Origin: Bacteroidia bacterium
GTDB lineage: Bacteria; Bacteroidota; Bacteroidia; J057
Reading direction: 5' to 3'
Assembly: GCA_030430575.1 (NCBI GenBank)
Contig: JAUIKF010000054.1
Location: 1-55,929, forward strand
DNA: 55,929 bases
Shown: one piece after another, positions 7,619 to 42,582 of the stretch
Position numbering within the stretch: the first letter of the stretch is position 1
Layout: each line of letters starts with the position of its first letter
Made by a program: the position numbers and the translations under genes
Notes under the pieces: generated by a model
Databases searched by the model: none
The model's input: only the letters and a program-made list of their open reading frames with translations
What the model was told of the DNA's origin: nothing

Positions 7619-10009
7619 CTACCCTTTTTCACTAAACCGCCCCACCACCCGCGTGCTCCCCATCGCCCACAGAACTATCGTCACAGACGAGAGCGGCATC
7701 AAGATCGCCGCCACGAGGGGAGACAGCAGCCCTTGGACCGCAAATGCCAAGCCTACCACATTGTAGAGGAATGCAATCGCAAAGCCTACTTTGACAAGCG
7801 CCATGCTTTTCCGTGCAAAGGCGAGCATCTCGCCTAAGCGCCCCAGATGATCGGCATCCAAGATGCCGTCGCAGGCTGGTGAGAAGCTATGGACATCTTC
7901 TGCGACGGCCAGACCGACGTCACTCTGCTGAAGGGCACCAGCATCGTTGAGGCCATCACCGAGCATGAGGGCGCTGTGCCCATTTGCTTGAAGGTTCTCT
8001 ATATAATGGAGTTTGTCGTAGGGAGATTGGCCAAAGTGTAAAGGGGTATTTTGAGGAAATAAAGCAGTCAATTGCTCATTGCCTGCTTGTCGGTCGCCCG
8101 ACAAAAGGGCTAAACGAAAGCGGCTGCTCAGGCGCTTCAGGAGGTCTCCTAGCCCTGCGCGCGCAGGCGCGTGCATCCTAAAAAAGCCAATAGGCTGTCC
8201 TGCTATCGCACACCAGGTGCCATTTTCCGCGACGTCCCCTTCCATTCCCAAAAATCCCGCCGATCCTATTTTTACCCATTGCCCATTTACCCTGCCTTCA
8301 ATCCCACTACCCGGCATCTCTGCGACATCCTCCACGGGCAGGGGCACCTGAGGGGGATAATGTGCCACGATGGCTCGGCTGATCGGGTGAGTAGATTGGA
8401 CAGCCAAGGATACCAGAAGCTGAATATCGCTTGCCGATAATGACGAAGGTGCTTCTGTGACACTTAGGGCTTTGGTCGCTGTCAGGGTCCCTGTCTTATC
8501 AAAGACCAATTGGTCCACTTTTGCCATGCGGCCTATGACCGATGTATTGCGAAGAAAGAGCCCTTTTTCCCCCATGATCCGCATGGTATTCCCCATCGTG
8601 AAAGGCAAGGTCAGGGCCAAGGCGCACGGACAGGCGATAATCAGCACCGCACTGAACACATTGACCCCCATCCCCGCTCCTGCTGTCAACCACCAGTATC
8701 CCCCTGAGAGCGTTGCAATAGCCAGAATGATCACCGTAAAGGCAGATGCCACTCGATCCACCCAGCGACTCAGTTGATCAGGTTTTTCCACCCCAAAGGT
8801 AGCGTGGTCCCAGAGACGGGTTAGGTAGCTTTGGGAAACAGATTTGGTTAAGGTCAACTCGATGGAAGGGCCTAGCTGACGGCCCCCAGCGTAGATGGCG
8901 TCTCCTGCCTTGCGCTGGACGGGCTCGGACTCTCCTGTCACAAAGCTATAATCGATCTGAGCATTGGGGCTCATGAGGACGGCATCAGCAGGGATGAGTT
9001 CTTGGTTTCTGACCAGAATCTGGTCACCGACTTTGAGATCGTGGAGGGCCACACTCGTGTGCCTTTCGTCAACGATTTGGGTGCAAGCCAAAGGAAAGTA
9101 TGCGGCATAGTCGCGGTCAAAGGAGATGGCATCGTAGGTCTTTTGCTGAAACCATTTGCCAATGAGCAAAAAGAAGACGAGCCCTGCCAGGGAGTCGAGG
9201 TAACCTGCGCCACTATGTGTCAAAATCTCAAAGGCTGACCGCCCAAATAGGGCTAGCATGCCCAGGGAGATGGGCACATCAATATTGGGATGCTTTTGTA
9301 CCAAACTCAGCCACCCTGAACGAAAATACGATGAGGCACTGTAGAGCAAGACTGGGAGGATCAGCAGCAGATTGAGGTAACTGAAAAACCGCGCATAGAT
9401 AGGCTCCAGTTCATGTCCAAAGGTCAAATATTCAGGAAAGCTCAGCAGCATGATGTTTCCAAAAAAGAAGCCTGCTACCCCCAACTGGTAATACAGCCGC
9501 CGTTTGGGGCGGTGTGTCTTGGAGTTGTTGAGGTCCTTCAAACGGATATCTGGCTCATAACCAATGGCTGTGAGCAGTTCTGCCACTTCTTGCAAATCTA
9601 TTTGCTGGGGGTCAAAGGTCAGGTAGAGTTCCTTTCGGAGAAAATTGACATTCGCCTGGGAGATGCCCTTGTGTAGGCGATAGAGGTGTTCCAATAACCA
9701 AATGCAGGAACTACAGTGAATCTGGGGCAAGCTGAAGGTGATGCGCACCTGCTCCTCGTCCTGGTAGTCAATCAACTGTGCGATGATCGCCGGCTGACTC
9801 AAGTAGTCAAATCTCGATGTGCCGTCCTCCGCTTTGCGCGTACCAGGATGCTGTTCCAGCTCATAATAGGTAGTCATTTGACTATCCTGTAACAATTGGA
9901 AGACAGTCTTACAACTGTGACAGCAGAAGTTTTTTTCTGCGTGTACGATGGGACGCGGGCCACAATCGTCCCCGCAGTGGAAACAATTATTGGTGATTGA
10001 TTGATTCAT
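7619..10009 (-). CDS. ccoI: Copper-transporting P1B-type ATPase for cbb3 oxidase assembly
   Basis: A 796-residue heavy-metal P-type ATPase that supplies copper to the membrane for cbb3 oxidase maturation. A Cys-rich N-terminus (residues 9-33) precedes an HMA-like domain with CSSC at 99-102. Membrane segments run through about 175-290. The actuator loop has TGES at 358-361. CPC is at 460-462 in the ion-path helix, DKTGT has the phosphorylated Asp at 504, and THPIS and GDGLNDA motifs follow. The pre-HMA Cys cluster and overall length fit the FixI/CcoI branch rather than CopA exporters. In most Bacteroidota ccoI sits next to ccoS and ccoN; here it is 32 kb away, divergent from stress and sensor genes. 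The motif shared with the cco operon lies about 155 bases upstream of the start. Confidence 0.93.
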   Translation of the reverse strand: MNQSITNNCFHCGDDCGPRPIVHAEKNFCCHSCKTVFQLLQDSQMTTYYELEQHPGTRKAEDGTSRFDYLSQPAIIAQLIDYQDEEQVRITFSLPQIHCSSCIWLLEHLYRLHKGISQANVNFLRKELYLTFDPQQIDLQEVAELLTAIGYEPDIRLKDLNNSKTHRPKRRLYYQLGVAGFFFGNIMLLSFPEYLTFGHELEPIYARFFSYLNLLLILPVLLYSASSYFRSGWLSLVQKHPNIDVPISLGMLALFGRSAFEILTHSGAGYLDSLAGLVFFLLIGKWFQQKTYDAISFDRDYAAYFPLACTQIVDERHTSVALHDLKVGDQILVRNQELIPADAVLMSPNAQIDYSFVTGESEPVQRKAGDAIYAGGRQLGPSIELTLTKSVSQSYLTRLWDHATFGVEKPDQLSRWVDRVASAFTVIILAIATLSGGYWWLTAGAGMGVNVFSAVLIIACPCALALTLPFTMGNTMRIMGEKGLFLRNTSVIGRMAKVDQLVFDKTGTLTATKALSVTEAPSSLSASDIQLLVSLAVQSTHPISRAIVAHYPPQVPLPVEDVAEMPGSGIEGRVNGQWVKIGSAGFLGMEGDVAENGTWCAIAGQPIGFFRMHAPARAGLGDLLKRLSSRFRLALLSGDRQAGNEQLTALFPQNTPLHFGQSPYDKLHYIENLQANGHSALMLGDGLNDAGALQQSDVGLAVAEDVHSFSPACDGILDADHLGRLGEMLAFARKSMALVKVGFAIAFLYNVVGLAFAVQGLLSPLVAAILMPLSSVTIVLWAMGSTRVVGRFSEKG

Positions 10010-10159: not shown

Positions 10160-10177
10160 GAATGACTTTTGTCATTC
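10160..10177. promoter_or_regulatory. Palindromic operator GAATGAC-TTTT-GTCATTC, shared with the cco operon
   Basis: A perfect 7+4+7 inverted repeat lies in the gap between ccoI and the usp genes. Its inner 14 bases (TGACTTTTGTCATT) recur exactly upstream of ccoS. The half-site/N4/half-site layout is that of FNR-family sites (TTGAT-N4-ATCAA), with a TGAC core instead. A CRP/FNR-type regulator encoded 3 kb away is a candidate binder; this link is inferred. Confidence 0.6.
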
Positions 10178-10183
10178 CGTCCA

Positions 10184-10197
10184 TTGATTCGGATCAT
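10184..10197. promoter_or_regulatory. FNR-like box TTGAT-N4-ATCAT
   Basis: The sequence matches the FNR consensus TTGAT-N4-ATCAA at nine of ten defined positions. A weak -7-like element (CGTATTTG, 10219-10226) on the plus strand would place the box centre near -41 relative to a start about five bases further on, the classical class II activator position for the usp genes. Sequence match seen; function inferred. Confidence 0.5.
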
Positions 10198-10258: not shown

Positions 10259-11152
10259 ATGACTAATTTCTCATCTCCCTTTTCCAAATCTACTGCCATG
10301 AAAAATCGACTGGAAGACATTCGGACTATCTTGTTTCCCACAGACTTCTCTGAAGCGGCGCACAATGCCTTCACTTATGCCCTGCATCTGGCTGAGGCGC
10401 TTGAGGCCCGCATTATTTTGCTTCATGTGTATAATATGACGCCAGTAGATAAGCGCTTTGTACCAGAAGCCTTTGTTCAGGCACTGGAAGCGGAGAAGGT
10501 AGAGAAGGCCCTTACTTATGTTCGAAAATATCATACAGAAGCCCAGGTAGAGGTAGGTACAGGGGTAAAAGTACAGGACATGATTTTGTCTGGCTACGCC
10601 GACCGGGAGATCATTCGATTGAGTCATGAAGATGAATACGATATGATCGTGATGGGCACCATGGGCGCTGCTAGTCAGGCAGAGAAGGCATTTGGAAGCG
10701 TAGCGGCCAAAGTACTCACCCATGCCGCCTGTCCCGTATTGTTGATCCCAGAGGAGGTGCGCTATGCGCCCATCCAACAGGTTGCCTATGCCATGGCAGG
10801 GGACGTAAACGATCCTGCCATGATCCAGCAATTGATTGACTTTTGCGAAACCCTTGATGCCAAGCTCTCTTGTGTACACATTCGCGACCTGGAAGGTACC
10901 TGGGACCAGTTAGATGAAAGTCAATTTGAAAAATTAGAGTCCTTAGAAGAATTGGGCAAACTCAGCATCTATATTGCCAAAGACAAGAGCCCTATGCAAG
11001 GCTTGGACCACTATATCACCCAGCGACATGTAGACTTATTGGCGATGCTGACACACAAGCGCCTTGTCATCGAAGCCATTAATAATAAGAGCCTTACGAG
11101 AGAGATGGCAATGTTTGCGGATACGCCATTGCTTGTCCTTCACGACCAATAA
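10259..11152 (+). CDS. Tandem universal stress protein (UspA family), first copy
   Basis: A 297-residue cytoplasmic protein with two UspA domains. The first starts at ILFPTDFSEAAHN and ends with the ATP-binding pattern G-x2-G-x9-G-S (GTMGAASQAEKAFGS) and CPVLLIPEE. The second domain is degenerate and ends MFADTPLLVLHDQ. The start could instead be the Met 13 codons later (10298), which would match the usual short N-terminus. The next usp gene begins 18 bases downstream, so they are probably co-transcribed, followed by the sensor kinase and regulator. An FNR-like box lies about 70 bases upstream. Such proteins often accompany low-oxygen regulons in other bacteria; here that is inferred from context. 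Confidence 0.9.
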   Translation: MTNFSSPFSKSTAMKNRLEDIRTILFPTDFSEAAHNAFTYALHLAEALEARIILLHVYNMTPVDKRFVPEAFVQALEAEKVEKALTYVRKYHTEAQVEVGTGVKVQDMILSGYADREIIRLSHEDEYDMIVMGTMGAASQAEKAFGSVAAKVLTHAACPVLLIPEEVRYAPIQQVAYAMAGDVNDPAMIQQLIDFCETLDAKLSCVHIRDLEGTWDQLDESQFEKLESLEELGKLSIYIAKDKSPMQGLDHYITQRHVDLLAMLTHKRLVIEAINNKSLTREMAMFADTPLLVLHDQ

Positions 11153-11170: not shown

Positions 11171-12007
11171 ATGAATACGCTACTGGTACCCATAGATTTT
11201 TCGGATGCATCCAAGAATGCTTTTCACTATGCTGCGCATATCGCGAGTATGTTTCATGCGCGGCTTACGCTCTTTCATGCCAATGCTGTCCCAGTGGCAG
11301 AATCACCTTGGGGACCCGGTGTGTATGAGGACTTAATTGCACAAGAAGAACAACGCGCCAAAGCACATTTTGAAGCCTTGGAGCAGGAGTTAGCGCCAAA
11401 TCTACTCGAAACCATAGAGCTAGAGTTCAAGGTGACATTAGGCAATGTTTCAGATGAGATTCTCGCGATTGCAGAAGAGATCCAGCCTAGCTTGATCGTC
11501 ATGGGCATGAAGGCCAGCCGTGACCTGGGGACCGCTATCCTTGGCAGCAATTGTGAACATATGATCCGTCGGGCAGATCACCCATTGCTGATCATCCCAG
11601 AACACGCACGGTATCACGGCATTCGCAATATCGCCTATGCGACCAATTTCGACGAAGAAGATCGACGTGCGATCGACCAACTCTTGGACTTTGCCTTCCT
11701 TTATGACGCAGTTATCCACTGCCTGCATGTCCGTCAGGGCGACGAGACGATGGAGCAACTGGCACGCCGCCAAGCGCTGAAAGCGCATTATAAGGAAGAC
11801 ATTCTTTTACACCACCTTGATTTCGATGAAGTAGAAGACGGACATATCATTGAAGGGCTGAATCACTATGTGAGGGATCATAATATCGACATGCTCACAA
11901 TGCTTACCCACAAACGGGGGTTTTGGGCCAACCTATTCACCCAAAGCGTCAGCAAAAAGATGTCTTTGAGTACGCGTGCGCCCTTATTGGTTTTTCATTT
12001 TGATTAA
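11171..12007 (+). CDS. Tandem universal stress protein (UspA family), second copy
   Basis: A 278-residue two-domain UspA protein beginning MNTLLVPIDFSDASKNAF. The first domain ends with GMKASRDLGTAILGSN, where the second Gly of the ATP pattern is replaced by Ala/Ser, so nucleotide binding may be weaker than in the first copy. The C-terminal domain ends STRAPLLVFHFD. It is a diverged paralogue of the preceding gene and lies in the same probable operon (18-base gap before, 87 bases to the kinase). Confidence 0.9.
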   Translation: MNTLLVPIDFSDASKNAFHYAAHIASMFHARLTLFHANAVPVAESPWGPGVYEDLIAQEEQRAKAHFEALEQELAPNLLETIELEFKVTLGNVSDEILAIAEEIQPSLIVMGMKASRDLGTAILGSNCEHMIRRADHPLLIIPEHARYHGIRNIAYATNFDEEDRRAIDQLLDFAFLYDAVIHCLHVRQGDETMEQLARRQALKAHYKEDILLHHLDFDEVEDGHIIEGLNHYVRDHNIDMLTMLTHKRGFWANLFTQSVSKKMSLSTRAPLLVFHFD

Positions 12008-12094: not shown

Positions 12095-13375
12095 TTGAAA
12101 AAGCCAGCTATCGCACATAGTCACCAAGATATCCGCTCTCGCCTACAAGCTGTCATCGATACTGCCATCGATGGCATTTTTACGATAGACCATCGCGGGA
12201 TCATTGAGACGGTCAATCCCGCTGGTTCCGAGATTTTTGGGTATGCACCGGAGGAGCTAATCGGGCAAAATATCTCCATGCTCATGCCTCAACCCCACCG
12301 AGCCAAACATGACGGGTATCTTGCCTCATACCTCAAAACGGGACAAGCCAAGATCATTGGCATTGGGCGAGAGGTCAAAGGGCAAAAAAAATCAGGCGAG
12401 CTATTCCCTTGTCGCCTAGCGGTGAGTGAAGTGAAACTAGAGGACGGAAACAGGGTTTTTACAGGCATTATTCATGACTTAAGCAAGCAAAAAGAAGCAG
12501 AAGAACAATTGAGAATTTATTCAGAAAAATTGGCACAACTGGTACAAGAACGGACCTCAGAGCTCACGCACACAGTGGAACAGCTTGAACAGCAGGTGGA
12601 CGAAAACCACCGCGTAGCAGAAGCTTTGCGCAAAAGTCAGCAAGAGGTCCAAGAAGCCCTGGACAAAGAAAAGCAGCTCAACGAGCTGAAGTCTCGCTTT
12701 GTATCCATGGCATCACATGAGTTCCGCACCCCCTTGTCGACCATCATGTCTTCTGTGACGCTGATCGGGCGCTATGAGGACGCGATTTATACCGAAAAAC
12801 GCAAAAAGCATATCGACCGGATCAAAGCATCTGTTCGTAACCTAACGGCTATTTTGAATGACTTCCTTTCCCTTGGAAAGTTAGAAGAAGGCCGTATTCA
12901 CAATGAACCCCAGGCATTTCGGATCAAAGATTTTGTGGAAGAAGTAGCGGAGGAAATGCAGTCTGTAGCACGCAAGGGGCAGAAGATTGTCTATTTGCAC
13001 AAGATTTTTCGAGAAGAAGTGTATTTAGACAAAAAATTGCTCAAAACCATTCTCCAAAATCTGCTCTCTAATGCCATCAAATATTCCCCTGAACAATCAC
13101 ATATCACAATCAGTACCCTATGTGATCCTGAATCCTGCATCCTGGAAGTCACAGACGAAGGGATGGGCATCCCTGAAGAAGAGCAAAAACACCTCTTCGA
13201 GCGCTTCTTCCGCGCCTATAACGCGACCAATATCCAAGGCACGGGCCTTGGATTGAATATTGTCAGAGAATATGTAGAATTGATGAATGGCGAAATTACC
13301 TTTACTAGCCGACTCAATGAAGGGACGACTTTTAGGGTAAAAATTCCCGTCAGTGAATCAAAAATTATTAATTAA
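12095..13375 (+). CDS. FixL-like PAS histidine kinase, candidate heme oxygen sensor
   Basis: A 426-residue soluble kinase with no membrane segment. The PAS domain (about residues 15-130) closely follows FixL: GQNISMLMPQPHRAKHDGY holds His72 at the FixL heme-ligand position, and IIGIGREV holds Arg92 exactly 20 residues later, the spacing of His200 and Arg220 in Bradyrhizobium FixL. FixL Arg206 is replaced by Ser78. A coiled coil (133-198) leads to the dimerisation box SMASHEFRTPL (His208), the N box LLSNAIKYSPE (323-333), DEGMGIP (354-360) and GTGLGLNIV (382-390). The start is TTG: the next in-frame Met would remove most of the PAS domain. The receiver-CRP gene follows 71 bases downstream. Family call firm; heme binding is probable but unproven, since some PAS domains with this His lack heme. 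Confidence 0.9.
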   Translation: MKKPAIAHSHQDIRSRLQAVIDTAIDGIFTIDHRGIIETVNPAGSEIFGYAPEELIGQNISMLMPQPHRAKHDGYLASYLKTGQAKIIGIGREVKGQKKSGELFPCRLAVSEVKLEDGNRVFTGIIHDLSKQKEAEEQLRIYSEKLAQLVQERTSELTHTVEQLEQQVDENHRVAEALRKSQQEVQEALDKEKQLNELKSRFVSMASHEFRTPLSTIMSSVTLIGRYEDAIYTEKRKKHIDRIKASVRNLTAILNDFLSLGKLEEGRIHNEPQAFRIKDFVEEVAEEMQSVARKGQKIVYLHKIFREEVYLDKKLLKTILQNLLSNAIKYSPEQSHITISTLCDPESCILEVTDEGMGIPEEEQKHLFERFFRAYNATNIQGTGLGLNIVREYVELMNGEITFTSRLNEGTTFRVKIPVSESKIIN

Positions 13376-13446
13376 TGATTACTAATTGATTGATTGTCAA
13401 TACCTCAGTCAATAATCTATAATTAATCAATCAATAATTTTCCCCC

Positions 13447-14505
13447 ATGAAAACCATACTCCTCATAGAAGACAACCTTGAAATGCGGGAAAACACCGCA
13501 GAGATTCTCGAACTTTCAGACTACAATGTACTCACGGCCGAGAATGGTAAGGTAGGTGTCCGCCTCGCCAAGTCTGAGCAGGTGGACTTGGTTATTTGTG
13601 ACATCATGATGCCTGAGTTGGATGGTTATGGCGTCCTACGGGTCCTCAGCCAGCAGCCGGATACGGCGGCCATTCCCTTTATCTTCCTCACCGCCAAGGC
13701 GGAGATGTCAGACCTGCGCAGGGGCATGCGCCTGGGGGCAGATGATTACCTCACCAAACCCTTTGACGATGTAGAGCTCATCGATGCGGTAGAGCTACGA
13801 CTCAAAAAGAGCGCTATCATCCAACAGGATTTTCCTCGTAACCTCGAAGGCCTCAATTCCTTTATCAATGAAGCGCGTAGCCACGAGGCCCTTTCCAACC
13901 TCTCCAAAGACAGAGAGACGCGCATCTATCAACCCAAAGATGTCATTTACAGTGAGGATGCTTATCCTCATCACCTCTTCTTTGTCCTAAGTGGGAAAGT
14001 CAAGACCTATAAGACGCATGAGGACGCTAAGGACTATATCACCGAACTGTACAAAGGCGGCGACTTTCTCGGCCACTCGGCCTTGCTGGCGGGCACTGCC
14101 TACCAAGAGTCGGCTATGGCCTTGGAAAAGACAGAAATCTGCATCATCCCCAAAGATGATTTCTTCACCCTCGTCTACGACAATCGCGACGTCGCCAATA
14201 AATTCATCCAACTCCTCGCCAATAGCTTGCGCGAGAAGGAGGAGCGCCTCCTCCACCTCGCCTATGACTCCGTGCGCAAGCGCGTCGCCGACGCCCTCAT
14301 CACCCTCGCCAATACGTACCCCGCCGAGAATGGCACCAATTTCTCCATGGACATCTCTCGCGAGAACCTCGCCAATATGGTCGGCACCTCCAAGGAGTGC
14401 GTGATCCGCGTCCTCTCTGACTTCAAGGACGAAGGCCTTGTGGTGACCAAACAGAGTAATATTACCCTGATGAACCAGGAAGGCCTGGGAAGGATACGGT
14501 GGTAG
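13447..14505 (+). CDS. Response regulator fused to CRP/FNR-type DNA-binding module
   Basis: A 352-residue fusion. The receiver domain (1-120) has acidic pocket Glu8/Asp9, phosphoacceptor Asp52 in DLVICDIMMP, Thr82 and Lys104 in LTKPF. A cyclic-nucleotide-binding-like barrel covers about 155-270 and a CRP-type winged helix about 285-345, with recognition segment TSKECVIRVLSDF. Its E-x3-R pair lines up with the FNR residues that read the TGA core of TTGAT. No N-terminal FNR cysteine cluster is present, so this protein should not sense oxygen by itself; input probably comes by phosphotransfer from the upstream kinase. It combines what rhizobia split into FixJ and FixK. The 3' half is visibly richer in G/C-ending codons than its start. 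Targets are inferred to include ccoI and the cco operon. Confidence 0.92.
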   Translation: MKTILLIEDNLEMRENTAEILELSDYNVLTAENGKVGVRLAKSEQVDLVICDIMMPELDGYGVLRVLSQQPDTAAIPFIFLTAKAEMSDLRRGMRLGADDYLTKPFDDVELIDAVELRLKKSAIIQQDFPRNLEGLNSFINEARSHEALSNLSKDRETRIYQPKDVIYSEDAYPHHLFFVLSGKVKTYKTHEDAKDYITELYKGGDFLGHSALLAGTAYQESAMALEKTEICIIPKDDFFTLVYDNRDVANKFIQLLANSLREKEERLLHLAYDSVRKRVADALITLANTYPAENGTNFSMDISRENLANMVGTSKECVIRVLSDFKDEGLVVTKQSNITLMNQEGLGRIRW

Positions 14506-35994: not shown

Positions 35995-36708
35995 TTAATT
36001 ACACCCTGCGACGCTGTCGCCAATAGGCCCCAATTCTGGGCTGAGAAAGGGAATTCCTAGTCCCATGCCGCGAAGCAGCAAAAAACACCCAAATACGATG
36101 ATAAACCCGTTAAGAATCGGTCGGTAGCGTTTTTTTAGTAACGCCTGCCCTTTCCCACTCAGCAATGAAATGCCAAACATCATCGGCAGTGTACCCAGCC
36201 CAAAGGTCATCATATAGACCGCACTGTCCAGGCTATTGCCTGCCAAAAGGGCGCCTGACAGGGCCAGATAAACAAATCCGCAGGGCAATAACCCATTCAG
36301 CAATCCCAGGCCAAAATGGGCTGGCTGTCCCTGGCGGGCCAGCAGGCGACTCATGCTGCGCCTAAGTTTCAATAAGGCCCTGTCAAGGGCTTTGACCTGG
36401 AGGAGCTTTTGCTCCACAGAGATAGAGAGAAAAGCGCCTATTAGGATCGCCAATCCTAACGTTATCGAAAGGACTTGTTGCAAGCCCCCGAACTGAATGC
36501 CAATCCCCAATAAGCCAATAATGGCCCCTAGCAGGGCATAGGTCGTGATCCGCCCAAAATTATATAGCAGCCTGCTGCTCACAAAGCGAAAGCGGTCTCC
36601 GCTTGGCGAGGGGATCGCCAGGGCTATCGGCCCACACATGCCCAGGCAGTGTAGACTCGAAAAGAGACCGGTGAGGAAGGCGACAGAAATCATTCTATAA
36701 TTCTTCAA
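35995..36708 (-). CDS. SafE/DsbD-like membrane protein of the cbb3 operon
   Basis: A 237-residue protein with about six membrane helices, of the DsbD_2/TauE-SafE-like type. The first helix has SSLHCLGMCGP, and a later one LLNGLLPCGFVYLALSGA; the paired HC/MCGP and PCG motifs are the family signature and suggest metal or thiol handling. The ATG overlaps the ccoH stop (ATGA), so it belongs to the cco operon. Homologues at this site are thought to aid copper delivery or oxidase assembly. A sulfite exporter name would mislead. Confidence 0.83.
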   Translation of the reverse strand: MKNYRMISVAFLTGLFSSLHCLGMCGPIALAIPSPSGDRFRFVSSRLLYNFGRITTYALLGAIIGLLGIGIQFGGLQQVLSITLGLAILIGAFLSISVEQKLLQVKALDRALLKLRRSMSRLLARQGQPAHFGLGLLNGLLPCGFVYLALSGALLAGNSLDSAVYMMTFGLGTLPMMFGISLLSGKGQALLKKRYRPILNGFIIVFGCFLLLRGMGLGIPFLSPELGPIGDSVAGCN

Positions 36709-37145
36709 TATTTCATGATTCCTTTCTCGTCATAAAATAGCTGATCGCCACTTTCCCATGAAAGGTGCACGCGCCAAAGGCCCGTTTTCATGCCTTCAAG
36801 CGAGATCGCTTGACAGGCAGATTCATCCAAGTCAGCCACAGGCCATTCCTGGTCTTCATTGGCGTCAGAGGGTCGGTAGAGAGTGATCTTGCCTTTGATG
36901 GCTTCCATTTCAGATGGGAAGCAAATGCGAAGCATGGCTTCGGCAGATTCATACTGGATCGTCACAGGCTGCTCCAGTGCCTTGCTATTGTGCATACGCT
37001 TGATGAGCCCTTCCTGCTCCAGCTCTGCCTGATAATAGTCCTCGCGGACCATATGCCATTCCTGCTTAGTCGCCATAAAGGCTAGCGAGAAAATCAGTAC
37101 CACAAAGGAAAGGTATAGGATGGTTATTCTTAGTCCCCAATTCAT
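36705..37145 (-). CDS. ccoH: FixH family cbb3 oxidase assembly protein
   Basis: A 146-residue protein with one N-terminal membrane helix (about 5-24, ITILYLSFVVLIFSLAF) and an extracytoplasmic domain with YYQAELEQEGLI and TGLWRVHLSWESGDQLFYDEK, matching FixH/CcoH. It is needed for oxidase assembly in known systems. It overlaps the next gene by four bases and follows ccoG after a 100-base gap that holds a repeat. Confidence 0.9.
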   Translation of the reverse strand: MNWGLRITILYLSFVVLIFSLAFMATKQEWHMVREDYYQAELEQEGLIKRMHNSKALEQPVTIQYESAEAMLRICFPSEMEAIKGKITLYRPSDANEDQEWPVADLDESACQAISLEGMKTGLWRVHLSWESGDQLFYDEKGIMKY

Positions 37146-37149
37146 AACA

Positions 37150-37232
37150 GAAGGTTTTAAGTTTTAGGTTCTAGGTTCTAAGTTTGGGGTCCTTTGTCAG
37201 GCTCAACGTAGAACCTAGAACATAAAACCTAG
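37150..37232. repeat. TTTTAGGTTCTAGGTTCTA inverted repeat
   Basis: TTTTAGGTTCTAGGTTCTA faces TAGAACCTAGAACATAAAACC between ccoG and ccoH. It is a copy of the family seen at 14521-14589 and could weaken read-through into ccoH. Confidence 0.6.
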
Positions 37233-37245
37233 AACCAGATTTCAT

Positions 37246-38661
37246 CTAGTCATACTTTATCTTCAACGGCCCTCGGAAGGTTGTCTCAACCTTGTCGAGT
37301 AGTGTGTCTCCCGCGAAGACCCCCAAAACGATGGGGATTTTGGTCTCTTCCAGCGTTTTTTTGTCAAATTCTATAAAAATAGCGCCTTTCGTAATGCCTT
37401 GAGACTGCATGGACAGTTTATTGCCGACAATGCGGGTGCGGCCGCCCTCAGGTGACAATACCTTGAAAGACAGGTCGTAGCCATTTCGGGTCTTATTGAC
37501 GATCTGTAGGTTAAATAAATTGGCGATATAGCCGTCATCGACCTCCTGATAGGGTACGCCTTTGGTGCGCAATAAGGTCATCTCTACATCAGAGCGGGTA
37601 CTCAGCGAGAAGCCCAATATGCTTATAAGCCCAAGTAACACCACTGAATAGGCAATGATTCTAGGTGTAAAGCGGAATTTGAGGCCCTTGTCAATATTAT
37701 TTCTGGAAGCATAACGGATAAGCCCTCGATCGAACCCCACCTTGTCCATGATATTGTCACAGGCGTCAATGCAGGCTGTACAGTTCACACACTCCAGTTG
37801 GGTGCCGTCACGAATATCGATTCCTGTAGGGCATACCTGCACACAGAGTTTGCAATCGACACAATCACCTGCTTCGCGGGTTTCTTTTTTGCGGAGGTGG
37901 GCCCGTGGCTCTCCTCGCACATTGTCGTAGGCTACCACAATGGAATCTTTGTCCAGCAATACCCCTTGCAAGCGCCCATAAGGGCAGATGGCAATACAGG
38001 CTTGCTCTCTGAGATAGGAGAAAACAAAGAAGAAAATCCCCGAAAACAAGAGGACAAAAGTGAATTTACCCATATTCTCTCCAGGGCCTTCAGTCACGAT
38101 TTTTTGCAATTCATCTATCCCGATCATATAGGCCATGACGAGGTTGCCAATCAGGAAAGCAATGGCAGCAAATATCGAATATTTGAGGATCCGCTTCAGG
38201 GTTTTGTCCACATCCCAAGGAGCCTTTGCTAGTTTGCGCTGCTTATTCGCATCGCCTTCAATCAAGTATTCTATCTTGCGGAATACCATCTCCATGAACA
38301 CCGTCTGTGGACAGACCCAGCCACAAAACACCCGCCCAAATACCACGGTAAACAACACGATGAACACCATAAAGGTGACCATAGCCAGGGCAAACAGGTG
38401 AAAGTCTTGGGGCCAAAAGGTCACCCCAAAAATGATGAACTTACGCTCAAGAATATTGAACAAAAACAACGGTAAGTCATCGTATTTCAAAAAAGGGCCT
38501 ACAAATAGCGCAGTCAGGAAGGCCATCGACACCCACACACGTTTATTGTGAAAGCGGCCAGATGGTTTTTTAGGATAAACCCACCTTCTCTTTCCCGTAT
38601 CATCGACGGTCCCGATATGATCGCGGTACGCATCGTAATCTATGAGCGGCTTTTCAGGCAT
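37246..38661 (-). CDS. ccoG: Cytochrome oxidase accessory iron-sulfur protein (RdxA/FixG)
   Basis: A 471-residue membrane protein that handles electrons or copper reduction during cbb3 assembly. Several membrane helices (about 38-60, 80-105, 160-180, 195-215, 335-355) surround Cys motifs CGWVCPQ and CIAICPYG. Two ferredoxin-type clusters follow: CVDCKLCVQVCP and CVNCTACIDACD. The C-terminal domain is Ig-like. Length and motif order match CcoG. Confidence 0.94.
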   Translation of the reverse strand: MPEKPLIDYDAYRDHIGTVDDTGKRRWVYPKKPSGRFHNKRVWVSMAFLTALFVGPFLKYDDLPLFLFNILERKFIIFGVTFWPQDFHLFALAMVTFMVFIVLFTVVFGRVFCGWVCPQTVFMEMVFRKIEYLIEGDANKQRKLAKAPWDVDKTLKRILKYSIFAAIAFLIGNLVMAYMIGIDELQKIVTEGPGENMGKFTFVLLFSGIFFFVFSYLREQACIAICPYGRLQGVLLDKDSIVVAYDNVRGEPRAHLRKKETREAGDCVDCKLCVQVCPTGIDIRDGTQLECVNCTACIDACDNIMDKVGFDRGLIRYASRNNIDKGLKFRFTPRIIAYSVVLLGLISILGFSLSTRSDVEMTLLRTKGVPYQEVDDGYIANLFNLQIVNKTRNGYDLSFKVLSPEGGRTRIVGNKLSMQSQGITKGAIFIEFDKKTLEETKIPIVLGVFAGDTLLDKVETTFRGPLKIKYD

Positions 38662-38762
38662 TTAGAGGAGGAAATTTTGAATTTTGAATGATGAATTTTG
38701 AATGCTGAATAACGGTTGAAAGTAATCATTCTTCACTCTCACTCTCAACCTCACGCTGTCTT

Positions 38763-39653
38763 CTACCTCATGGCTACGCCATCAGTCGTATCAGCAGGTG
38801 CTGCTTCTGACTCATATAACTCACCTTGAGGTTCTTTCGGATTGGGCGGATTGGTCCCTTGAAGAGACAGAATGTAGCTAGCTACTTCATGCATCTCACG
38901 GGGCGTGAGCTGCTCCTCCCAGGAGATCATGCCCTTTTCGGTGACACCATATTTAATCGTTGAAAACACATCTTTGATGCTCCCCCCATGTATCCAATAG
39001 GCGTCTGTCATATTGGGACCTGTACCTCCCTGGCCTTCTGCTCCATGGCACACTGCACAAAGCGTCTGGTAAGTCTTCTTACCGCCTATCAAGGCTGCTC
39101 CATCAGTCAACAGTTCGACACTGTTTTCATCTACCAGATCAGCAGCTTGGGCAAGATAAGCGGCCTTTTCTTCAGCTGCGATAGCCATTTCTGTATTGTA
39201 TTCCTTTTCGGAAGACCAACCAGCACTAGATGCATGGTAGTAAATCATATAACCAAATGCCCATACGATAGAAATATAGAAGCCCCATTTCCACCAGGGT
39301 GGGAGGTTGTTGTCAAGTTCACGGATGCCATCATAGTCATGGCCCATATCGATATCTTTTTCCTTTTCTACAGGTTTTAGGTCATTGATTGCGAGCCAAA
39401 ACCGCTGCCAGCTGGATGGTTTTGAAGCTTGATCTTCTACGCCTTCTTTCGCTTCGGCAGTACGCCATTGGCGAACCATGACGAACACAGTGAAGGCGAG
39501 GACCAGCGCAACCAGCGACAAAGTGATCATCGCAAAGATCATCACGGAGAGGATTTCTTCAGATTGAGAAGGCTCAGCCGTCTGGGCCATGCCTACCCCT
39601 CCTGTCAAGAGAAGGGTACTGAGAAGTAGGGTTATTTTATTGCGAAATGACAT
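38763..39653 (-). CDS. ccoP: cbb3 oxidase subunit CcoP, single-heme form
   Basis: A 296-residue membrane-bound cytochrome c. A signal-like N-terminus precedes a helix at about 35-60 and a second at about 122-140, just after the typical NNLPPWWKWGF motif. One heme site CAVCH (199-203) is present with likely Met ligand in KGMISW (about 242). Proteobacterial CcoP has two CXXCH sites; here there is only one, so electrons reach CcoO through a shorter chain. It ends with an acidic Pro-rich tail. Confidence 0.93.
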   Translation of the reverse strand: MSFRNKITLLLSTLLLTGGVGMAQTAEPSQSEEILSVMIFAMITLSLVALVLAFTVFVMVRQWRTAEAKEGVEDQASKPSSWQRFWLAINDLKPVEKEKDIDMGHDYDGIRELDNNLPPWWKWGFYISIVWAFGYMIYYHASSAGWSSEKEYNTEMAIAAEEKAAYLAQAADLVDENSVELLTDGAALIGGKKTYQTLCAVCHGAEGQGGTGPNMTDAYWIHGGSIKDVFSTIKYGVTEKGMISWEEQLTPREMHEVASYILSLQGTNPPNPKEPQGELYESEAAPADTTDGVAMR

Positions 39654-39729
39654 AATCGTTTATAATGATTGAATGAGTGAATGATAGAATGGAATGAGTA
39701 GATGAATAGATGATAAAATGAGTAAATGG

Positions 39730-39830
39730 TAAAGCCACTTCTTTCATTTTCCATTTTTAATTATTCATTGTCCATTGTTCATTCCCAATTCTCCATTGTT
39801 AATTCTTAATTCTCCCTCTCCTTCCATCGG
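39730..39830. repeat. CATTTTCCATTTTTAATT / ATTGTTAATTCTTAATTCTCC tract
   Basis: Several copies of (A/T)ATTC(T)CCATTGTT-like words, complement of the TTTTGAATGATGAAT family found at 14631-14665, 38672-38711, 44664-44701 and 52128-52168. Its right side codes for the last residues of ccoQ. Confidence 0.55.
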
Positions 39831-39974
39831 CATGGCCGAGAGGGTCTTTATCTTTTGCTTGTCCATCCTTGCTACCCATATCAACAAGGCCATGAAGAAG
39901 CCAAAGAAGATGATAATGGAGATGACAGGAAAGATGCTGACATCATCGAGGGATCTGAGAATGATTTTATACAT
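39765..39974 (-). CDS. ccoQ: cbb3 oxidase subunit CcoQ-like
   Basis: A 69-residue protein with one membrane helix (about 15-36, FPVISIIIFFGFFMALLIWV) followed by a basic stretch and a Met/Pro segment (KIKTLSAMPME), as in Bacteroidota CcoQ. The last 15 or so residues (ELRINNGELGMNNGQ) come from the intergenic repeat family and are probably a neutral extension. It lies between ccoNO and ccoP. Confidence 0.85.
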   Translation of the reverse strand: MYKIILRSLDDVSIFPVISIIIFFGFFMALLIWVARMDKQKIKTLSAMPMEGEGELRINNGELGMNNGQ

Positions 39975-40126
39975 GGGGAAGAAAGTTTTGGGTTTTGGGT
40001 TTTGGGTTTTGTGTTTTAGGTTCTGGTTAGCAGCGAATTAATTGTGAATGGAGAATTATTGACATTAAGGGGATATTGGAGGAATCGCTTGTTTTTAATT
40101 AACCATTCACAATTATCCATTTACAA

Positions 40127-42292
40127 TTATTTCTTTCCCTCACCTACTCCATCGACGCCGAGGCGCTGGAGGTAAGCGATGATCGCGATGACCTCAGTAT
40201 TGGGTCTGATGGTACCTGATTCGAGGTTCAGCTCCTTCTCGATATTCTGGGCGATGCCCCTGGCTTGCTCCATCAGGTCAGCGATAGCGATCTGATCATA
40301 GCCGTCATCATAGGGGACGCCTAAGGCTTGCATAGCGCGAATCCTAGCTGGGATGCTCGCTGTATCCATCGGCGATTTTACTACCCATGGATATGCTGGC
40401 ATGATAGAAGCCGGCACATCTATCCGTGGGTCCAGCAAGTGCTGGTAATGCCAAGAGTCTGACTTGCGGAGCTTGGCAGTACCTTCGCGAGAAAGGTCTG
40501 GCCCTGTACGCTTAGATCCCCAAAGGAACGGATGGTCATAGACAAATTCTCCGGACTTGGAGTATGGGCCATAACGCTGGGTCTCTGACCGGAAAGGACG
40601 GATCATCTGGCTATGACAGGTGTTACATCCTTCACGGACATATAAGTCACGTCCTTCCAATTCCAGCGGTGTATAAGGTTGTACCTGTTCGAGTTTGGGG
40701 ATATTGCTATCTATCAAGAAGGTAGGTACCATTTCCACGATCCCGCCGATCAAGATCAAGATAGTTGCAAAACCCAACATCTGGAAAGGCTTGCGCTCAA
40801 TGATGCGGTGCCAGTATTCGTTTTTGGGTTTCGAATAGGTCTTGACCAATGCTGGGGCTTCGGCCTTCTCATTGGGCAAGAAGCTGCCGCCCCGTACAGT
40901 CTTCACCAGGTTATAGATCATCATGAAAGCACCGATGACATATAAGGTACCGCCGATGGCGCGCATCCAGTACATAGGCAATATCTGCACGACCGTTTCA
41001 AGGAAGTTTTTGTACTGCAAATTTCCTGCTTCGGTGAATTCTTTCCACATCAAGCTCTGGTCGATCCCTGCAATATAGAGAGGTACTGCATAGACAATGA
41101 TCCCCAGCGTACCGATCCAGAAGTGACTATTGGCGAGTTTTTCAGAGTATAATTTGGTGCTAAATATGCGAGGGATGAGCCAGTAGAGGACACCAAAGGT
41201 GAGGAATCCATTCCATCCCAGCGTACCTACGTGCACGTGCGCAATGGTCCAGTCTGTAAAGTGACTTACTGCATTTACGCCTTTGATTGAGAGCAACGGT
41301 CCTTCAAGGGTCGACATCCCATAAGCTGTCACTGCTACCACCATGAACTTCAAGGTTGGGTCATTGGCGACACGGTCCCAGGCACCTCGTAAGGTCAGCA
41401 GGCCATTTAACATTCCCCCCCAAGAAGGTGCAATCAACATAATCGAGAACACTGTTCCCAAAGATTGCGCCCAGTCTGGCAAAGAGGTATACAATAAGTG
41501 GTGCGGACCCGCCCATATGTAAATAAAGATCAGGGCCCAAAAGTGAATGATCGACAGGCGGTACGAGTAAACCGGTCTATTCGCAGCTTTTGGGATAAAG
41601 TAATACATCAGGCCGAGATAAGGCGTGGTGAGGAAAAATGCCACCGCATTGTGTCCATACCACCACTGCACCAGCGCATCTTGAACCCCTGCATAGACAG
41701 GATAGCTTTTCATGAATTCCACAGGCAGTTCGATACTGTTGACAATGTGTAGGACAGCCACCGTCACCCAAGTTGCGATGTAGAACCAAATGGCTACATA
41801 CAAGTGACGCTCACGACGGTTAAAAATCGTCATGAACATGTTTAATCCAAAAATCACCCATACCAGGGTAATAGCGATGTCAATAGGCCATTCAAGCTCT
41901 GCATACTCTTTGCCTGTGGAGAACCCCATCGGCAGAGAGATCAAGGCCGAGACAATGATGGCTTGCCATCCCCAGAAGTGTAGTTTGGAGAGGGCGTCGC
42001 TGTACATTCGAGCCTTCACGAGGCGTTGTAGGGAGTAGTATACCCCCATGAAAATACCATTACCGACAAAGGCAAAGATGGCAGCATTGGTGTGTAGGGG
42101 CCGTATGCGGCCAAATGATAGAAAATCAATTCCGCCAAATAGCTCTGGCAGGACCATTTGGAACGCAATGGTCAGCCCTACCAGAAACCCCGCTAACCCC
42201 CAAAAGGATGTCGCATAGGCAAACATCCGTACAATGGAGTTATCGTAATAAAAGGTTTCTAATTGGGATCTTGAAGCAGAAGTAGTCGTCAT
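40127..42292 (-). CDS. ccoNO: cbb3 oxidase fused subunits I and II (CcoN-CcoO)
   Basis: The 721-residue product joins the catalytic subunit and the CcoO cytochrome, as in other Bacteroidota. The CcoN part (1 to about 480) has heme ligands His67, His352 and His354, the CuB ligands His214, His264 and His265, the candidate cross-link Tyr258 and Glu330 in STLEGP. After a linker and a helix (about 505-525), the CcoO part has one heme site CNTCH (556-560) and SQMIRPFRSE. It reduces oxygen to water with high affinity at the inner membrane. ccoS overlaps it upstream by four bases. Confidence 0.97.
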   Translation of the reverse strand: MTTTSASRSQLETFYYDNSIVRMFAYATSFWGLAGFLVGLTIAFQMVLPELFGGIDFLSFGRIRPLHTNAAIFAFVGNGIFMGVYYSLQRLVKARMYSDALSKLHFWGWQAIIVSALISLPMGFSTGKEYAELEWPIDIAITLVWVIFGLNMFMTIFNRRERHLYVAIWFYIATWVTVAVLHIVNSIELPVEFMKSYPVYAGVQDALVQWWYGHNAVAFFLTTPYLGLMYYFIPKAANRPVYSYRLSIIHFWALIFIYIWAGPHHLLYTSLPDWAQSLGTVFSIMLIAPSWGGMLNGLLTLRGAWDRVANDPTLKFMVVAVTAYGMSTLEGPLLSIKGVNAVSHFTDWTIAHVHVGTLGWNGFLTFGVLYWLIPRIFSTKLYSEKLANSHFWIGTLGIIVYAVPLYIAGIDQSLMWKEFTEAGNLQYKNFLETVVQILPMYWMRAIGGTLYVIGAFMMIYNLVKTVRGGSFLPNEKAEAPALVKTYSKPKNEYWHRIIERKPFQMLGFATILILIGGIVEMVPTFLIDSNIPKLEQVQPYTPLELEGRDLYVREGCNTCHSQMIRPFRSETQRYGPYSKSGEFVYDHPFLWGSKRTGPDLSREGTAKLRKSDSWHYQHLLDPRIDVPASIMPAYPWVVKSPMDTASIPARIRAMQALGVPYDDGYDQIAIADLMEQARGIAQNIEKELNLESGTIRPNTEVIAIIAYLQRLGVDGVGEGKK

Positions 42293-42489
42293 GCTTTATT
42301 CGCAGTTAGTGGTGAATCTGTAGAATTGGGTTGAGGGGTTTCTGGCTCAGATGTATCATCAAACAGCATTCGCACAGAGGGTGTATAGTCATCCTCATAC
42401 TGTCCACTGCTGATGGCCCATACAAAAATAGCTAGGAAGCCAAGGGCCACCGTCAAGCTGATGCAGATAAGGAGAAATATTGCGCTCAT
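42289..42489 (-). CDS. ccoS: cbb3 oxidase maturation protein CcoS
   Basis: A 66-residue protein with one membrane helix (about 4-26) followed by SGQYEDDYTPSVRMLFDD, close to the family tail pattern (G-Q-[FY]-D-D-x-x-P). CcoS is needed for cofactor insertion into the oxidase. It is the first gene of the operon and its stop overlaps the ccoNO start. Confidence 0.93.
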   Translation of the reverse strand: MSAIFLLICISLTVALGFLAIFVWAISSGQYEDDYTPSVRMLFDDTSEPETPQPNSTDSPLTANKA

Positions 42490-42523: not shown

Positions 42524-42568
42524 GGGAGGGGATCAGCCTGGCAGGATGAAAGGAGTCACAGCGCGGAG

Positions 42569-42582
42569 TGACTTTTGTCATT
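42569..42582. promoter_or_regulatory. Shared motif TGACTTTTGTCATT upstream of ccoS
   Basis: Exact copy of the inner 14 bases of the palindrome at 10160-10177 upstream of ccoI, in the same orientation to its gene. TGAC-N4-GTCA has FNR-family geometry. If it binds an activator, the site centre would be near -65 from the expected start. Confidence 0.6.

Follow-up and report, generated by a model that had tools for sequence, protein, structure and literature searches.

A FixL-like sensor kinase and a receiver-CRP/FNR fusion as a predicted low-oxygen switch in Bacteroidia

Background

FixJ, the partner of the heme kinase FixL, has a LuxR-type helix-turn-helix (HTH) as its output domain, and FNR carries E and R residues in its recognition helix. 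FixK, a relative of FNR without the cysteines, stands under FixLJ control in the Alphaproteobacteria (available part of PMC4999443). In Rhizobium leguminosarum a heme path and an FnrN path lead to one operator, and in the rhizobial model the heme path is active near 12 uM O2 and FnrN near 0.12 uM (both from the available part of PMC7888657). Here we describe a gene pair in a Bacteroidia bacterium (contig JAUIKF010000054.1 of assembly GCA_030430575.1, whose 55,929 nucleotides are called the window and supply the positions given below). The pair consists of a FixL-like sensor kinase and a regulator in which a receiver domain is fused to a CRP/FNR DNA-binding module. It is laid out to work like FixL-FixJ-FixK, but by domain make-up and model scores it falls outside each of these three families. 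Together the two proteins probably form a low-oxygen switch over the cco genes for cbb3 oxidase, universal stress protein (usp) genes, and their own genes.

The control of high-affinity oxidases in Bacteroidota is little described in the open-licence literature, as far as titles and the opening parts of abstracts go, and within that scope no receiver-CRP fusion controlling these oxidases is described. Response-regulator censuses in subscription journals may list the receiver-CRP architecture. In their available parts, a Chitinophaga genome note predicts FixL-FixJ (PMC5646412), a study of CRP/FNR proteins in a wastewater community assigns homologs from Saprospiraceae and Flavobacteriales to MalR and carbon sensing (PMC8510549), and a text on Flavobacterium psychrophilum reports induction of cbb3 at low O2 without naming Crp, Fnr, or FixL (PMC9723704). 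The corresponding parts of PMC1183210, PMC12471899, and PMC9239204 make no mention of receiver-CRP fusions.

Architecture of the kinase and the fusion

The two genes, and the residues on which their predicted function turns, are located as follows.

12095..13375, + strand: soluble PAS-HisKA-HATPase sensor kinase, 426 amino acids (aa), TTG start (open reading frame (ORF), Pfam)
12137-12514, + strand: FixL-like PAS of the kinase, residues 15-140 (FixL alignment, structure model)
12308..12310, + strand: H72 codon, aligned with the heme-ligand His of FixL; codon read directly
12368..12370, + strand: R92 codon, aligned with the distal Arg of FixL; codon read directly
12716..12718, + strand: H208 codon, phospho-acceptor His of HisKA (SHEFRTP)
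13447..14505, + strand: receiver-CRP/FNR fusion, 352 aa; receiver (REC) 4-116, cNMP-fold 159-243, HTH_Crp_2 278-349
13600..13602, + strand: D52 codon of the fusion, predicted phospho-acceptor
14395..14409, + strand: recognition-helix residues E317 to R321 (ECVIR) of the fusion

The PAS, HisKA, and HATPase_c domains of the kinase all exceed their Pfam cut-offs, as do the Response_reg, cNMP_binding, and HTH_Crp_2 domains of the fusion, which bears out the joining of a receiver to a CRP/FNR module that a preliminary description of the window had claimed. The FixL-like spacing of H72 and R92 noticed there also holds: PAS residues 15-129 align with S. meliloti FixL (PDB 1d06) with an E value of 1.1e-28, the stretch from H72 to R92 is free of gaps, and FixL has the same letters at both positions. 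An AlphaFold2 model of the PAS, built from a 49-row alignment, has a mean pLDDT of 93.3, and when it was compared with the PDB using Foldseek, ranks 1-20 were all FixL heme domains and ranks 21-28 were mostly DosP heme domains. The structural check thus gave a confident model whose nearest folds are FixL heme domains; the heme pocket itself is predicted. (It should be noted that the invariant H of the 49-row alignment was not used as evidence: 48 of the rows were a hand-picked subset of the 88 PAS rows left after thinning, a subset that did not include H-less rows such as L160 and L085.)

Within the receiver, D52 is conserved at 95% or more over 141 regulator rows, position 82 is T in 130 and S in 11, and K104 is present in all 141. 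By its sequence the fusion is a response regulator, having a REC domain with the Asp acceptor, the Thr/Ser, and the Lys. The E and R of the recognition helix have a conservation of 1.00 (rounded) over the same rows. The structure model of the fusion is weaker than that of the PAS, with a mean pLDDT of 80.8 and two short stretches below 50.

The kinase resembles FixL in heme-PAS sequence and fold, in the H72 and R92 positions, in a PAS placed on HisKA-HATPase, and in linkage to cbb3 genes, but at 426 aa, against 505 for S. medicae FixL, it is without the N-terminal part, and its partner is not FixJ. The kinase is FixL-like, yet it lies far under the NCBI model for the sensor protein FixL (NF041777, named for rhizobial FixL, 485 positions), with 162.3 bits against a cut-off of 850. 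Like FixJ, the fusion is a receiver response regulator beside a kinase; unlike FixJ, its output is a CRP/FNR module (cNMP_binding and HTH_Crp_2), so that no separate fixK layer is needed. With FixK and FixKf of the Alphaproteobacteria it shares a CRP/FNR fold without iron-sulfur (Fe-S) cysteines, a place under a FixL-like kinase, and cco genes as (here predicted) targets (PMC4999443, available part). However, FixK is a separate protein that is controlled transcriptionally, whereas the CRP/FNR part of the window's protein is fused to a receiver and its control should therefore be by phosphorylation. The score against the FixK model NF050806 is 73 bits (cut-off 300). The FixK anaerobox, TTGAT-N4-ATCAA (PMC7888657, available part), differs from the Bacteroidia site TGAY-N4-RTCA described below.

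FNR and FnrN resemble the fusion in the E and R of the recognition helix and, as predicted for the fusion, in a palindromic site with a 4-bp gap and in cco targets, but the fusion is without the four-cysteine set that its standalone relatives in Bacteroidia have. The only cysteines of the window's fusion are at 51, 232, and 318, no four-cysteine set was found in the CRP half of 22 fusion rows, and the score against Fnr (NF008365) is 67 bits, with a cut-off of 228. Neither is the fusion a cAMP receptor CRP: it scores 77 bits against NF008732 (cut-off 266), and the cAMP cassette GE...RSA is absent from the window's fusion by eye. Finally, the hFixL-FxkR-FixK arrangement of Rhizobium is similar in having a heme kinase, a separate FNR-type sensor, and one common cbb3 operator (PMC7888657, available part), but it consists of three proteins in series, with receiver and CRP/FNR part separate, whereas the two sensor types of Bacteroidia are mostly mutually exclusive (counts below). 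The idea that the fusion merges the roles of FixJ and FixK stands as regards a receiver on a CRP/FNR module, but the DNA-binding half groups with FNR-like proteins of Bacteroidia.

Conservation of the pair and linkage to cco and usp genes

Of the 581 or more loci matched in a scan of named genomes, the 80 best were examined; they bear Bacteroidota names apart from L020 and L083, discussed below, and L027, filed simply as a bacterium. Since this set leans to close relatives, an even draw of 395 Bacteroidota genomes (match threshold E <= 1e-60) was used in addition, from which regions of up to 19.5 kb were fetched around 60 matches other than the window's. In the even draw 56 of the 395 genomes, every one of them from the window's class, have the fusion (61 matches). 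The gene directly upstream encodes a kinase in 79 of the 80 named loci (in L024 the kinase ends about 1 kb before the fusion) and in 53 of the 60 even-draw copies (gap -80 to 232). When both sets are taken together, 132 of 140 loci have a kinase at a distance of -120 to 260 bp from the fusion, and the pairing is thus conserved in related genomes, where the preliminary description had proposed to look for it.

Among the 60 even-draw regions, 20 hold ccoNO, ccoP, or ccoG, 24 have any cco-like match, 25 have usp, and 41 have cco or usp. By arithmetic from genomes of 4-5 Mb, the chance of a cco cluster in a region of that size is below 1%. Physical linkage is relied on here because all 56 fusion genomes are in one class; the co-occurrence of fusion and ccoNO at the level of genomes (51 of 56 fusion genomes against 266 of 395 overall, counted by hand) is confounded by class and was rejected as evidence.

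In the window the neighbourhood of the pair and the cco genes are arranged as follows.

7619..10009, - strand: P-type ATPase of ccoI type, by Pfam domains and context; divergent from usp
10163..10174, no strand assigned: operator copy 1, TGACTTTTGTCA, between ccoI and usp
10185..10196, no strand assigned: operator copy 2, TGATTCGGATCA, 22 bp from copy 1
10259..11152, + strand: universal stress protein 1 (usp), heading the likely usp-usp-kinase-regulator operon
11171..12007, + strand: universal stress protein 2 (usp)
35995..36708, - strand: membrane protein ending the cco run, presumably TauE/SafE-like
36705..37145, - strand: ccoH-like ORF, by position; no NCBIfam match
37246..38661, - strand: ccoG (TIGR02745, over cut-off)
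38763..39653, - strand: ccoP-like subunit (TIGR00782, 120 bits, under the cut-off of 180)
40127..42292, - strand: fused ccoN-ccoO of cbb3 oxidase (NF011053, 1235 bits against a cut-off of 1080)
42289..42489, - strand: ORF of 66 aa, ccoS-like, so named from its position
42547-42558: one-mismatch operator partner, forming a second 22-bp doublet with 42569-42580
42569..42580, no strand assigned: operator TGACTTTTGTCA, 80 bp upstream of ccoS

The gaps along usp, usp, kinase, and regulator are 18, 87, and 71 bases, and these four genes on the + strand likely form one operon. The ccoI gene, on the - strand, is about 2.1 kb upstream of the kinase, in agreement with the 2 kb first noted, and the operator region is common to ccoI and usp. 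The cco operon reported in the window is also there, as a run on the - strand from 35995 to 42489 that starts 21.5 kb beyond the kinase-regulator pair.

Two side observations concern the pair. In three loci (L129, L139, and L155) the fusion is beside a divergent ccoI with no adjacent kinase, and a kinase-like ORF is found about 9 kb away. In addition, two contigs filed under Alphaproteobacteria carry the pair (L020, an Alphaproteobacteria bin, and L083, a Thalassovita bin); these bins are probably contaminated, because the PAS stretch of L020 is identical to that of Runella sp. CRIBMP (L023).

The PAS domain across the family

In the kinases of the even draw (53 plus the window's), H72 is retained in 51 of 54, R92 in 39, and the phospho-His H208 in all 54. 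Among the 125 PAS domains of adjacent kinases in the named and even sets, 115 have the H. The proximal His is therefore a feature of the family and the distal Arg is not; the window's PAS has both. (A count of 75 in 80 for H at column 72 in the named set was set aside in favour of the 115 in 125, since it is inflated by kinases in which a receiver replaces the PAS.)

Within the 8.16-Mb genome from which the window comes, seven places match PF00989 and one further frame is PAS-like. This comparison set is small: four of the other PAS domains could be aligned with the window's, and for the remainder (C36 and C56 among them) the alignment was of no use. None of the four has R at the R92 column, and of the PAS domains compared in the genome the window's is the only one in which H, R, and FixL-level similarity were seen together. 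Other PAS domains in the fetched loci were tried as a neutral control and dropped; they are mostly upstream partners of the same system. A separate observation in this genome is a multi-PAS kinase (C58:23703-26133); after it comes a protein in which a receiver is joined to a kinase-type core, and of the receivers in the genome this one is closest to that of the fusion.

The wiring between PAS and fusion varies. Thirteen named-set loci (from Pontibacter, Flexithrix, Flammeovirga, and others) have, by eye, a receiver-histidine kinase without PAS beside the fusion, and in 12 of these a second kinase with one or two PAS lies upstream, at 3.2 to 5.3 kb between gene starts. All 21 PAS rows from the upstream kinases of these 12 phosphorelay loci have H and 19 have R, so a heme input likely survives the change of wiring. 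Three further PAS rows of other kinds come from L024 (H, M) and L140 (two rows without either residue). In the Pontibacter loci L026, L028-L030, L037, L039, L048, and L072 the order is a two-PAS (H/R) kinase, then the receiver-histidine kinase, then the fusion.

The pair is also carried by plasmids of Hymenobacter swuensis, H. psoromatis, H. canadensis, and Runella rosea, whose fusions are full-length, with 44-47% identity, and are annotated merely as 'response regulator' or 'transcriptional regulator'. On H. swuensis pHsw1 (L191) the neighbours are two truncated hemoglobins, a heavy-metal P-type ATPase, ccoS, and ccoN; on the H. psoromatis plasmid (L356) the pair adjoins cytochrome bd genes. 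By eye, the best-aligned PAS has H in three of the four plasmid kinases.

A candidate operator, TGAY-N4-RTCA

The cco-linked targets suggested in the preliminary description have gained a candidate operator. In upstream segments of 360 bases, TGAY-N4-RTCA is present in 29 of 46 before ccoNO, 17 of 28 before ccoI, and 36 of 88 before usp (15/33 + 21/55), compared with 163 of 1043 before other genes. Because kinship inflates counts of this kind, up to 761 bases of sequence preceding ccoNO were also examined in the even draw, the genomes being chosen by hand (40 of at least 44 fusion genomes, 20 genomes of the same class without the fusion, and the first 20 of other classes). The site occurs in 38 of the 40 fusion genomes, with 2.4 expected by shuffling, and in 2 of the 20 genomes of other classes, with 1.2 expected. 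Classical FNR boxes (TTGAT-N4-ATCAA) and CRP boxes showed no enrichment before ccoNO or ccoI. Plain dyad counts and palindrome expectation-maximization on related sequences merely suggested the motif and were discarded as evidence, the latter because its optima varied between gene sets.

The sites are often paired at a fixed distance. Among 635 sites in 140 loci, 49 pairs are at exactly 22 bp, 5 are at 23 bp, and at most 4 are at any other distance up to 120 bp. The gene starts within 300 bp of such a doublet are those of ccoNO (8), usp (6), ccoI (5), the kinase (5), and the fusion (1); among 34 of the 36 other ORFs flanking doublets there are two instances each of the Hsp20, BON, CBS, DoxX, and radical-SAM domains. 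In the source genome the only perfect doublet is that at 10163-10196, in the gap between ccoI and usp. When up to one mismatch is allowed there are 7 doublets, against 0 for a reversed-pattern control, and one of the seven is at 42547-42580, beside ccoS and the ccoNO run; the two strong sites of the window have identical 12 letters, TGACTTTTGTCA. Single strong sites were rejected as a regulon list (40 in the source genome against 18 in the reversed control), and since they are too numerous only doublets were used.

The sites of the window predict control of ccoI, of ccoS-ccoNO, and of the usp-usp-kinase-regulator run, and because a doublet heads that run, autoregulation is predicted as well. 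A possible further target is marked by a one-mismatch 22-bp doublet elsewhere in the source genome (G000:C28:2631-2664), in the gap before an ORF that looks bestrophin-like, near another that is presumably IscA-like.

Alternative explanations

Several observations weigh against a low-oxygen switch of this kind: the 21.5 kb between the cco run and the pair in the window, the 7 of 60 fusion copies that have no adjacent kinase, the H. psoromatis plasmid kinase, which is without the H, and the position of four of the seven source-genome doublets (L349, L351, L352, and L354) inside reading frames, where they are treated as chance. To these are added the points on R92, on other PAS domains, and on other binders of the operator, which bear on three alternatives.

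The alternative that survives best, though it is unlikely, is that the heme PAS senses nitric oxide, carbon monoxide, or redox state, and that the pair governs the response to nitrosative stress or to stress in general, cco being a secondary target. No more than 57 of the 125 partner PAS domains have R92; in the other 68 it is replaced or gapped (most often M, 26, and L, 12), which could alter the choice of ligand. The truncated hemoglobins beside the plasmid copy and the usp genes in 25 of 60 neighbourhoods point the same way. However, the window's PAS keeps both H and R, with an ungapped FixL match around them, and the pair is linked to high-affinity oxidases, namely cbb3 and, in one plasmid, cytochrome bd.

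Next in rank, and also improbable, is the explanation that TGAY-N4-RTCA belongs to another CRP/FNR regulator and that the fusion has other targets. The operator is present before ccoNO in 18 of the 20 same-class genomes without the fusion (1.3 expected by shuffling), so the site is not tied to the fusion, and with an operator common to another regulator family, the presence of a site is by itself no proof of binding by the fusion. The CRP relative that matches best in these 20 genomes stands alone (L274-L293) and in 16 of them is within about 7 kb of ccoNO. All 20 standalone CRPs have a CxxC, with a third Cys some 46 residues later and a fourth some 53 after that, plausibly a [4Fe-4S] set. The cysteine spacing of E. 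coli FNR is unlike this one; the standalone protein is, to judge from its sequence, likely a Bacteroidia oxygen regulator of the Fe-S type whose cysteines are unusually spaced. Its recognition helix (typically GTATESxIRLLSEFK) is near-identical to that of the fusions (typically GTATESxIRTLSDFK; in the window GTSKECVIRVLSDFK), which speaks against a different target set for the fusion.

The four-cysteine CRP is present in 5 of 20 fusion genomes examined, against 20 of 20 without the fusion (Fisher p 8e-7), and four more (G091, G379, G033, and G088) have a CRP with a different N-terminal cysteine cluster, which brings any cysteine cluster to 9 of 20 (p 1.5e-4). The four-cysteine pattern was absent from thirty weaker CRP-like matches of the examined fusion genomes. 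All 15 fusion genomes without that pattern have the operator before ccoNO, and these include the 11 in which the matches read show no CRP with a cysteine cluster of either kind. For the source genome four CRP-like matches are listed, and the GTxxExxIR helix is confined to the fusion; the other three (C35, C73, and C31) have neither such cysteines nor an E..IR helix, yet the operators are there. The C31 protein (21 bits), with the helix GSAREVISR, does keep the E and R with S in place of I, and as a possible alternative binder it might recognize a TGA-type site; some other fusion genomes have CRPs with an E..IR helix or another cysteine cluster. Hence the fusion is the best candidate for binding the operators among those considered, though not the only one. 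A separate CRP type was noticed in L295, L332, L365, and L366, with C8, C13, and C16 (C19 in three of the four), a Cys near 107, and a YETVFR-like helix; it is a candidate second Fe-S regulator.

The least likely of the three alternatives, that the PAS binds no heme, that H72 is there as a widespread or structural residue, and that the kinase senses something else, can appeal to the distal Arg not being a family feature and to the H found, by eye in weak alignments, at the same column in three of the four alignable other PAS domains of the source genome (C58, C64, and C90), but it sits badly with heme-PAS domains as the closest structures, with H in 115 of 125 partner PAS domains, and with the H and R kept upstream in the 12 phosphorelay loci. 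Because of those other PAS domains, H alone is weak evidence for heme, and the case rests instead on FixL-level similarity together with both residues.

Proposed mechanism and significance

Taken together, the pairing, the linkage to cco, and the operator support the compact oxygen-response circuit that was first suggested for the window; heme, a response to O2, phosphotransfer, and binding of the operator by the fusion are what we infer from the sequences. In a low-oxygen switch of this type, heme in the kinase PAS would be held by H72 and would bind O2 with the help of R92, and the kinase would be off while O2 is bound. As O2 falls, the kinase would autophosphorylate at H208, and the phosphate would pass to D52 of the fusion. 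The phosphorylated fusion would then dimerize and bind TGAY-N4-RTCA, often as a 22-bp tandem doublet, and so activate ccoI, ccoS-ccoNO with the cco genes that follow, and the two usp genes; through the doublet that heads the usp-usp-kinase-regulator run it would activate its own genes too. The direction of regulation, activation at low O2, is proposed by analogy with FixL. In genomes of the same class without the fusion, the standalone four-cysteine CRP appears to serve the same operator.

A broader proposal, which we favour by a little, is that there is one Bacteroidia CRP/FNR lineage with its operator and two exchangeable heads, one of the Fe-S type with four cysteines, the other a receiver that takes its signal from a heme kinase; joining of the receiver would have happened once, the cysteines would be absent from that branch, and the operator before cbb3 would have been kept. 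A quick CRP tree of 124 rows requires 2 changes for the fusion. In a smaller quick tree of 70 rows, from which five long-branch fusion rows were dropped and the rest thinned, all 35 fusions lie on one side of a branch (95 SH-aLRT).

The kinase, the fusion, and TGAY-N4-RTCA provide Bacteroidota with a testable candidate sensor, regulator, and operator for their high-affinity oxidases. They also offer a natural experiment, with a sensing head that varies on a regulator lineage and a DNA site that stay the same. If the proposal is true, the exchange of heads would, by analogy with the rhizobia, retune the O2 threshold of the same regulon.

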